Origin: Pseudomonadota bacterium
GTDB taxonomy: Bacteria; Desulfobacterota; Desulfobacteria; Desulfobacterales; RPRI01
Assembly (NCBI GenBank): GCA_018823005.1
Contig: JAHJJB010000234.1
Location: 1 to 35,150 of the forward strand
Length of the DNA: 35,150 bases
Direction of reading: 5' to 3'
The notes beneath the pieces were generated by a model, which saw only the letters and a list, made by a program, of their open reading frames with translations, did no database searches and was not told the DNA's origin. Positions 1,366 to 35,134 of the stretch are shown piece by piece; position 1 is the first letter of the stretch, and every line of letters starts with the position of its first letter. The translations under genes were made by a program, and so were the position numbers.

Positions 1366-1420
1366 GTGAACCGAAACAGCGAGCGCATTCCTCGCTGCTT
1401 GCAGCGGGGAGCTTCAATTG
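1366..1420 (+). repeat. REP-like palindromic element, copy A
   Basis: A unit of about 55 bases starts with GTGAACCGAAACAGCGAG and ends with GGGGAGCTTCAATTG. Its core is a CGCTGCTTGCAGCG hairpin. It resembles the units at 7425-7547 and 34776-34833, so it belongs to a dispersed intergenic palindrome family. Confidence 0.7.
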
Positions 1421-7424: not shown

Positions 7425-7547
7425 TTGAACCGCAATAGCGAACGCATTCCCCGTAGCTTGCTACGGGGTTAGTGAGCGAATCAAAAACAGAAAGAAAGTC
7501 CTTACGGTCGAAGATTCTCCGTAGCCTGCTACGGGGAGCTTCAATTT
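7425..7547 (+). repeat. REP-like palindromic elements, copy B (two hairpins)
   Basis: Two related hairpins lie between uvrA and pdxA. The first, CCCCGTAGC-TT-GCTACGGGG (7449-7468), is perfect. The second, CTCCGTAGC-CT-GCTACGGGG (7517-7536), has one wobble pair. The outer edges read TTGAACCGCAATAGCGAACG and GGGGAGCTTCAATTT, as in copy A. They may act as terminators or mRNA stabilisers. Confidence 0.75.
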
Positions 7548-8588: not shown

Positions 8589-9197
8589 TGTAAAACCTTT
8601 CCTTTCGTTTCCCGGTCTTATCCGGCATCGGCCCATATCCCGACTCGGCTTTTTGACCAGCCTGCTTACTGCAGGCCCAGTCCCTTAGGGCGTGAAGCTT
8701 CAATTGAGTCTTTTTACCGGAATATAAAATCGTATTATACTACATTTTCATCAATGGTTTTTCAACAATTTCCAATATGATTTGATAATAAAAACCTGTT
8801 ATGAGGATAACGATAAAAATAAAAGGTAATCGCAGAATTCGCGAGATATGCAAGAATGGCATTATTGCCTGTTTCTAAAAAATTAATGCAGATATGCCTA
8901 AAATACCTGAAAAAATTACTCCGGTAGAAAAGATTGTGGATAAAGGCGTTTATCTTTATGCGTGATATTATTAATATGAATTCAGATGGATACAAATTGT
9001 TGATAACTTTTTTCAAAACAATCGATATCCAGTTTTTATCAGGTTTGACACAACCGATTCTATGCTTTAGAAAGACGCATACTTTTTTCAGCTATTCGAA
9101 CTGTCCATAACAAATTGCTTGCGGTTGTTTTATAAACAGGGCTCTTCAATTAACAGCATTTTAATCAGCTTTATAATAAGTTTATTCGATTGGTTCT
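8589..9197. other. Candidate origin region: AT-rich DNA with DnaA boxes
   Basis: This gene-free stretch lies between divergent pdxA and dnaA and is strongly AT-rich from about 8705 on. TTGTGGATAA (8934-8943) is the exact reverse complement of the consensus DnaA box TTATCCACA plus one base. TTGTTGATAA (8997-9006) differs by one base. Weaker matches are TGTCCATAA at 9102 and TTATAAACA at 9130. A palindrome GTTATGAGGATAAC sits at 8798. The left part (8631-8712) carries a degraded REP-like end, GAAGCTTCAATTGA. This resembles an oriC or a DnaA-autoregulated promoter. The 84-residue antisense ORF at 8762-9016 looks spurious. Confidence 0.5.
9045..9079 (+). promoter_or_regulatory. Possible sigma70-type promoter for dnaA
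   Basis: TTGACA at 9045-9050 is followed, 17 bases on, by TAGAAA, a weak -10. It lies between the DnaA boxes and the dnaA start, which would allow autoregulation. The weak -10 keeps confidence low. Confidence 0.3.
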
Positions 9198-14744: not shown

Positions 14745-14812
14745 TTCAGATTATTATACCTTAAAATATATAGCTATTATCAGAATAATGTTCCGATCGG
14801 CTATTTCAAGTT

Positions 14813-15030
14813 GTTTGGGTATGGGTGCGTATGCGAACCGCAGAAAATTTGTCACATGTCTTCGAGGACGCCCCCAAATAGATAATAAAGATTGTACAGG
14901 CGGATACAATAAACGGCTTCGTGAGAAAAACCATTTTTGGGCTGCACGGATTTCATGGATGCGGATATGCCGCCGTTGACGAAGGGCAGGGCATTATTTC
15001 TGCGGATCGCATACGCACCCATACCCAAAC
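14813..15030. mobile_element. 218-bp MITE-like element with 34-bp terminal inverted repeats, copy 1
   Basis: The ends GTTTGGGTATGGGTGCGTAT... and its reverse complement form 34-bp terminal inverted repeats (14813-14846 and 14997-15030) with a single mismatch. The inside is not a transposase. A second copy of exactly the same length lies at 34917-35134 and aligns without gaps, with long identical blocks such as GGATTTCATGGATGCGGATA. Clear target-site duplications are not seen. It fills most of the 318-base gap between hflX and dnaB. A 73-residue minus-strand ORF across it is probably incidental. Confidence 0.8.
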
Positions 15031-15062
15031 AGAATAGATTTATGATATTTACTGTAATCCTT

Positions 15063-16477: not shown

Positions 16478-16658
16478 AGAGACCTTTGCATAACACCCCC
16501 TTTTGCCCGATTTATTTAAAGATTTGGTTTTTGGTCTCTTGTTTGTAGTTTCTGGTTTTTCTTTTAACCAGGAACCAGTAACTATAAACCATGAACCTAA
16601 GCCTTAAATATCACCTTCCTTGTACTTGGCCAAAATTGGGCGTTCTTCAAAGGTCTCT
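16478..16658. repeat. 181-bp stretch bounded by AGAGACCTTTG inverted repeats
   Basis: AGAGACCTTTGCA at the left and its near reverse complement (TTCAAAGGTCTCT) at the right enclose about 155 bases without coding content. The 4-base direct repeat TCTA flanks both ends. Inside, GTTTCTGGTT (16548-16557) pairs with AACCAGGAAC (16566-16575). This looks like a small non-autonomous or decayed insertion in the gap between rplI and dnaB. The rest of that gap shows nothing. Confidence 0.45.
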
Positions 16659-34775: not shown

Positions 34776-34833
34776 CATTTGAAACGAAACAACGAGAACA
34801 TAAACCGCTGCTTGCGGCGGGGTGCTTCAAATG
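34776..34833 (+). repeat. REP-like palindromic element, copy C
   Basis: The unit begins with CATTTGAA and ends with TTCAAATG, a perfect 8-bp inverted pair, around a CCGCTGCTTGCGGCGG core. It is collinear with copies A and B (GAAACGAAACAACGAG ... GGTGCTTCAA). Confidence 0.72.
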
Positions 34834-34916: not shown

Positions 34917-35134
34917 GTTTGGGTATGGGTGCGTATGCGATCCGCAGAAAAACTTTTCTTAAGGCTTCGACACGCCCCCATATGGTCGATAAATATTGTA
35001 AAGGCGGATACAATAAACGGCTCCGTGAGCAAGGCCCTTTTGGGGCTGCTTGGATTTCATGGATGCGGATATGCCGCCGTTTACGAAGGGCATGGAATTA
35101 TTTCTGCGGTTCGCATACGCACCCATACCCAAAC
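34917..35134. mobile_element. 218-bp MITE-like element, copy 2
   Basis: Terminal inverted repeats at 34917-34950 and 35101-35134 match those of copy 1, at exactly the same total length. As in copy 1, one internal base in the arms differs. It lies next to a decayed regulator gene and a REP-like unit. The minus-strand ORF across it shares the frame and the LGMGAYA...PFVNGGISASMKS stretch with copy 1. Confidence 0.8.

Follow-up and report, generated by a model that had tools for sequence, protein, structure and literature searches.

What kind of element is the palindromic repeat that recurs in intergenic gaps of the window (the whole 35,150-nt stretch of DNA analysed here), and how did it come to be dispersed? 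The earlier note took it for a REP-like family, with three related units and a decayed fourth. The repeats are considered here to be non-autonomous IS200/IS605-type transposable elements, similar to the palindrome-associated transposable elements (PATE), with a probability of roughly 0.87. The three units are real, although their borders had to be corrected to 1366-1417, 7425-7544, and 34779-34830. A covariance model (R1), built from 15 short copies that include the two short copies of the window but not the long one, detects them with E-values of 5e-22, 3e-14, and 9e-17, respectively, and 3 instances of the right-end pattern are present in the window vs. 0.00 in shuffled sequence (100 shuffles). 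The decayed fourth unit at 8631-8712 is unsupported; only a 33-nt right-end-like match is found there (8671-8703, E 0.45). The copies and their parts are:

1366-1417, plus strand: short one-hairpin copy of 52 nt, between a pyrK-like gene and selD
1366-1370, 1386-1389, 1390-1409, and 1413-1417, plus strand: target GTGAA, guide CATT, hairpin, and right end TTCAA of this short copy
7425-7544, plus strand: long two-hairpin copy of 120 nt, between pdxA and uvrA, with empty sites in the congeners G004 and G006
7426-7429, plus strand: left cleavage/target tetranucleotide TGAA, a flank retained from the target; the left flank varies across the family
7445-7448, plus strand: left guide CATT at the foot of hairpin 1, with 4/4 pairs to TGAA under the IS608 rule
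7449-7468, plus strand: left subterminal hairpin 1, CCCCGTAGC-TTGC..., with three pairs changed on both sides
7513-7516, plus strand: right guide GATT at the foot of hairpin 2, with 4/4 pairs to TCAA and covariation
7517-7536, plus strand: right subterminal hairpin 2, paired in the alignment; a near-identical hairpin ends the IS200 TnpA copies of the congener G001
7540-7544, plus strand: element right end TTCAA, with the right cleavage site TCAA at 7541-7544
34779-34830, plus strand: short copy of 52 nt, downstream of ilvA, its guide decayed to CATA

Long copies of the family (119-123 nt) are organized as TTGAA-CCGAAACAGCGAGCG-CATT-[CCCCG..CGGGG]-TTAGCGAGCGAAT...TCCTTACGGTCGAA-GATT-[CCCCG..CGGGG]-AGCTTCAA. 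Short copies (52-54 nt) keep a single hairpin between the left end and the right tail. At 52 or ~120 nt, the element is too short to encode a transposase. The distance from hairpin to end is asymmetric, with 21 nt on the left vs. 3 nt on the right. The outer TTGAA and TTCAA ends that the earlier note described are present, but they are not true inverted termini, as the left one is variable target sequence and the right one belongs to the element itself. In one long copy (L015, G000:C113:5921-6047), a small palindrome, TCCGCCTAGGCGGA, lies within the right guide/hairpin region and looks as if a second mini-palindrome had been inserted.

A search of the 2.65-Mb host genome (an assembly that is 87% complete) with R1 returned 118 matches at E<=0.1, 95 of them at E<2e-4, which by manual row count correspond to ~80 loci once ~15 second hairpins of long copies are removed; the family thus has many copies rather than few. 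It is present in 9/9 congeners, with 6 to 98 matches each in the rows listed for R1, and four genomes of other families are rich in the element (40 to 97 each among the matches listed). An exact search for the left end in named genomes found it mainly in Desulfobacteraceae, Desulfobacterales, and "Deltaproteobacteria" MAGs, and the left end had no exact match in viral contigs. Copy midpoints fall inside open frames of at least 130 aa in 16/61 cases vs. 83% for a background proxy, indicating that the family is mostly intergenic, as had been proposed. In G074, a single-contig genome, 9/11 copies lie on one strand, a count on which no argument is built here.

Other features of the window are of separate interest. 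A second dispersed repeat of ~220 bp occurs at 14812-15031 and 34917-35134 (88% identical), has 34-35-nt terminal inverted repeats (GTTTGGGTATGGGTGCGTATGCG...), is MITE-like, and has many more copies in the genome. A third repeat of ~180 bp (16478-16658) has 31-nt inverted ends starting with AGAGACCTTTGCA, which may resemble those of IS5-type elements, and dozens of copies of it are present in the congeners G002, G003, G004, G006, and G008. The selD gene (1466-2515) contains an in-frame TGA at codon 18 (KVRASGUAAKIGPG), and for this reason its product is probably a selenocysteine-containing SelD; read through the TGA, it matches TIGR00476 selD at 3e-113.

Pairing within the hairpins is maintained through base changes. 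Among 16 long copies and 26 predicted pairs, 94.5% of cells are paired, and 5 pairs have changes on both sides (10 such cells). The covariation score is 0.218 compared with 0.164 for shuffled alignments (0/500 reach the observed value) and at most 0.078 for slid versions, although such counts are inflated by kinship among the sequences. Apical swaps are visible by eye (CGCTGC/GCAGCG, CGTAGC/GCTACG, CCCGCTCTGCGG), and pairing is likewise kept in certain short copies whose arms are longer and quite different (69-81 nt). The earlier suggestion that structure is preserved while bases differ is therefore borne out, and the covariation analysis it called for does find compensatory changes. Folding of single copies is less informative: folded by itself as DNA, the short copy does no better than shuffles (z -0.64) and prefers another fold, and the long copy folds with a z of -3.8, its best single fold pairing the arms of hairpin 1 with those of hairpin 2. 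The two-hairpin structure thus rests on the alignment.

The tetranucleotides at the feet of the hairpins have a counterpart in IS608, where the guides AAAG and GAAT, which lie 5' of the hairpin feet, select TTAC and TCAA as cleavage sites; the pairs A+16:T-3 and A+17:T-4 are stated (PMC5934647). Guide and cleavage site show both linear and cross complementarity (PMC8266576). The pairing scheme used here (-1:g4, -2:g3, -3:g1, -4:g2) is derived from these two reports, the assignment of -1 and -2 being our reading of "linear." Under the IS608 scheme, CATT pairs with TGAA and GATT with TCAA, both with 4/4 Watson-Crick pairs. A sister class of ends behaves in the same way (AATA with TTAT and GATA with TCAT, both 4/4). 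When all 24 possible schemes are applied to both ends of classes A and T (four in all), only the IS608 scheme gives 16/16 pairs, the next best giving 12, and guides read from shifted positions form at most 2/4 pairs. Copy by copy, the four left guide pairs hold in 58, 53, 58, and 56 of 61 copies, and the right guide pairs in 17, 18, 18, and 17 of 19. The single guide of the short form makes 3/4 pairs with the right cleavage site.

Guide and cleavage site also change together. In 292 genomes of the order, with rows counted by hand and figures covering the rows listed, right ends in TTCAA have T as the last guide base in 146/150 cases (A in 1, another base in 3), and right ends in TTCAT have A in 82/87 (T in 1, another base in 4). 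The Fisher p of 1e-60 for guide base vs. cleavage base ignores relatedness and overstates the number of independent changes, as the two classes may be few lineages. Because the search pattern was fixed (AT before the guide base, AGCTTCA after it), a single base pair is tested by this comparison. Both classes occur together in genomes that include G288, G253, G276, G130, G234, G001, G002, G006, and G008. The TTCAT class also contains non-autonomous IS200/IS605-like elements of 150-200 nt (L299-L318, in G160, G288, G074, G024, G119, and G215), whose left ends and middles are quite different and several of which have the target TTTAT and the left guide AATA.

A high copy number, an intergenic bias, and a conserved hairpin are also properties of a true REP/REPIN family dispersed by a RAYT (TnpA-REP). 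The two-hairpin form resembles a REPIN, and the congeners encode RAYT-like proteins of 337-361 aa. However, the hairpin feet do not carry the GTAG/CGTC tag; they are CATT and GATT, which fit the cleavage sites. The RAYT-like genes of the congeners lie between the arms of an unrelated inverted repeat (GGACGTTCATCAAT.../...ATTGATGAACGTCC) and are not bordered by the element, their product reaches 60 bits against an NCBIfam RAYT cut-off of 80, and the host genome (87% complete) has no RAYT match over threshold. A search for a REP-associated transposase, which the earlier note had proposed, found no element adjoining any of the ~50 Y1/RAYT loci scanned. Dispersal by a RAYT is therefore improbable, and what stands of the REP-like description is that the family is palindromic, has many copies, lies mostly between genes, and shows compensatory changes. 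The RAYT-like protein (337-361 aa; L119 1399-2409 = G002:C328, and L126) has a C-terminal helix-turn-helix-like part, and its gene has an inverted repeat of its own on either side (GGACGTTCATCAATATATAAGTTG / CAACTTATAGATTGATGAACGTCC).

Empty sites were taken from congeners at 86-96% identity. At 5 loci at which this genome reads TTGAA-element-TTCAA, the related sequence contains just one TTGAA-like 5-mer; since one 5-mer becomes TTGAA-element, the target is not duplicated. At locus 1366, for instance, G004 reads ...GGC-GTGAA-TAGTGG... and the host ...GTC-GTGAA-[element]-TTCAA-TTGTGA..., with identical left-flank letters. The filled TTGAA-element-TTCAA|T of G000:C49 corresponds to the empty sites TTGTA|T (G004, 96% identity) and TTAAA|T (G006), those of G000:C111 are TTTAA|A (G004) and CAGAA|G (G006), and for G000:C12 a paralogous stretch has the empty site GTGAA|A. 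At locus 7425, the empty sites are TTCAA|T (G004) and TTCAG (G006) instead of the predicted TTGAA. Two loci among the empty sites compared are discordant in the G/C of TTSAA, and at G000:C113 the empty site falls 5 nt short of the prediction. The same site is filled in opposite orientations in L049 (G000:C44) and L253 (G002:C351). These discordant cases could reflect in-place inversion or chance substitution.

The flanks of the copies define a preferred insertion context of T-TGAA|A/T, mostly 3' of TGAA. In 61 copies, TGAA is conserved in the left flank, position -5 is loosely T (49/61), and there is no preference beyond it; the right end is followed by A or T in 59/61. In another set, drawn from named genomes with GAA fixed by the search pattern, T is found at -4 in 71/79 and at -5 in 50/79, with no preference at -6, and the base 3' of the right end is A or T in 39/39. 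According to the guide rule, the fifth letter of TTGAA should not be guide-selected, as is seen.

These sites bear on another explanation, in which the repeat is an immobile structural or regulatory RNA or DNA element (a terminator, an mRNA-stability element, or a gyrase-binding palindrome) that is under selection and whose copies spread by duplication. Its intergenic location and a hairpin upheld by compensatory changes would agree with such a role. On the other hand, insertion is shown by the presence or absence of copies between congeners at precise borders, by the unrelated context of each copy, and by the target preference, and an Rfam scan of the window gave no match. Immobility is thus very improbable, and a secondary role after insertion is possible. 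Least probable of all is a DDE-transposase MITE whose terminal inverted repeats would be TTGAA/TTCAA: the 5-bp inverted ends would suit it, but the "repeat" stops after 5 bp, its left copy changes from target to target, the empty sites reveal no duplication of the target, and the ends are asymmetric (see spacing above). Taken together, the anatomy, the empty sites, and the guide/cleavage complementarity fit the IS200/IS605 family and not REP/RAYT.

A candidate for the enzyme of these IS200/IS605-type elements is found in the congener G001, which has IS200 TnpA copies on C239, C281, C113, C273, and C208. This TnpA scores above the cut-off of NCBIfam NF033573, is also an IS200/IS605 transposase according to Pfam, and has ISDra2 (5e-18) and ISHp608 (1e-12) as relatives in the PDB. 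The right end of the TnpA element, GATA-CCCCGCCCGCTCTGCGGCGGGG-AGCTTCAT, is nearly identical to GATT-CCCCGCCCGCTCTGCGGCGGGG-AGCTTCAA in the elements of this family. Its left end runs ...CAATA-CCCCG and is otherwise unrelated to them (TATGATTTTCAATA...). A further G001 copy (C155) has a hairpin, CCCCGTAGCTTGCTGCGGGG, that is also found in long elements. In the genomes searched, no TnpA gene with ends of the TGAA/TCAA class, i.e., an autonomous partner with the same guides, was found, and neither in the genome loci nor in the 8-kb loci of named genomes was a gene enclosed by this pair of ends in a long element. The IS608 TnpA itself does not read the cleavage site (PMC5934647), so a G001-type TnpA could move the TGAA class in trans. 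The host genome, at 87% completeness, has no G001-type TnpA and no TTCAT-type ends; the family may thus have no activity in this host, or else the gene may be part of the 13% that the assembly lacks. Two other candidates were rejected. The one IS200 TnpA of the host (C147:183-539) has unrelated hairpins (CCGCCGAC.../...GTCGGCGG) and is not the direct parent, and a right end near C12:7611 does not mark a gene-bearing copy, as it adjoins a TerC-type gene read on the other strand.

The following model of transposition is proposed, in which the enzyme, the single-stranded circle, and present-day activity are our inference. The transposed strand of the two-hairpin form would be TGAA|CCGAAACAGCGAGCG-CATT-[hairpin 1]-...-GATT-[hairpin 2]-AGCT-TCAA|. 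A Y1 (HUH) TnpA of the IS200 type, acting in trans, would bind both hairpins on single-stranded DNA. Through DNA-DNA pairing of the IS608 type, CATT would select TGAA, which is left flank and part of the target, and GATT would select TCAA, the last bases of the element. The element would then exit as a single-stranded circle with a predicted junction of TCAA joined to CCGAAACAG. This circle would re-enter 3' of another TGAA, preferably within T-TGAA|A/T, leaving the target unduplicated.

The short form appears to be a fusion of left and right ends across one hairpin, as expected from deletion between two similar hairpins. Short copies of the host genome have at least 4 distinct hairpin sequences, each like the hairpins of long copies, which argues that the short form arose more than once. 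In G031, which belongs to another family, short copies with diagnostic letters of their own (CGCAAAAGCG) occur in different contexts; this suggests, without proving it, that the short form spreads itself. It can be proposed, tentatively, that paired guide/cleavage changes (TTAT/TCAT to TGAA/TCAA) have naturally retargeted the non-autonomous IS200/IS605 elements of a single bacterial order, which would still draw on the same TnpA pool, and that the 52-nt one-hairpin form is itself mobile, so that a REP-like repeat would have been born from an IS200/IS605 element.

A very common repeat of Desulfobacterales-type genomes is thus explained by a known mechanism. The elements are ordinary in kind but rich as a natural test of DNA-guided targeting, since hundreds of natural guide/cleavage-site pairs amount to an in vivo, evolutionary test of what is described for IS608 and ISDra2. 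They also illustrate that REP-looking repeats are not necessarily REPs, and that the foot tetranucleotide and the empty site discriminate between the two. Like REP/REPIN, the elements are high-copy intergenic hairpins, single or paired, but they lack the GTAG/CGTC tag and an association with RAYT and have guides and cleavage sites of the IS200/IS605 type instead. With IS608 and ISDra2 they share subterminal hairpins and insertion 3' of a short target without duplication; IS608 inserts 3' of TTAC, and the target remains in the left flank (PMC5934647). The right cleavage site TCAA is that of IS608, as are the position of a guide tetranucleotide 5' of each hairpin foot and the pairing scheme. Unlike IS608 and ISDra2, the elements have neither tnpA nor tnpB, their target is TGAA (TTAC in IS608, TTGAT in ISDra2), their hairpins are perfect or near-perfect, and all four guide positions are Watson-Crick. 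The IS200 TnpA element of G001 has nearly the same right-end hairpin and AGCTTCA tail, but differs in its guides (AATA/GATA), in cleavage sites ending in T, in its other left end, and in the presence of tnpA. The closest described kind is PATE, the transposase-free, high-copy elements of Haloquadratum walsbyi, which have IS605-type near-terminal palindromes, no inverted termini, and no target duplication, and whose 52-bp "terminal-only" forms are made by deletion between two palindromes (PMC3119063). The likeness is one of architecture: the elements described here also combine near-terminal palindromes and high copy number with the absence of a transposase gene, inverted termini, and duplication, and their 52-nt one-hairpin form matches the terminal-only forms. 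In contrast to the haloarchaeal PATE, they are bacterial (Desulfobacterales-type MAGs), and two guide classes with matching cleavage sites can be read in them.
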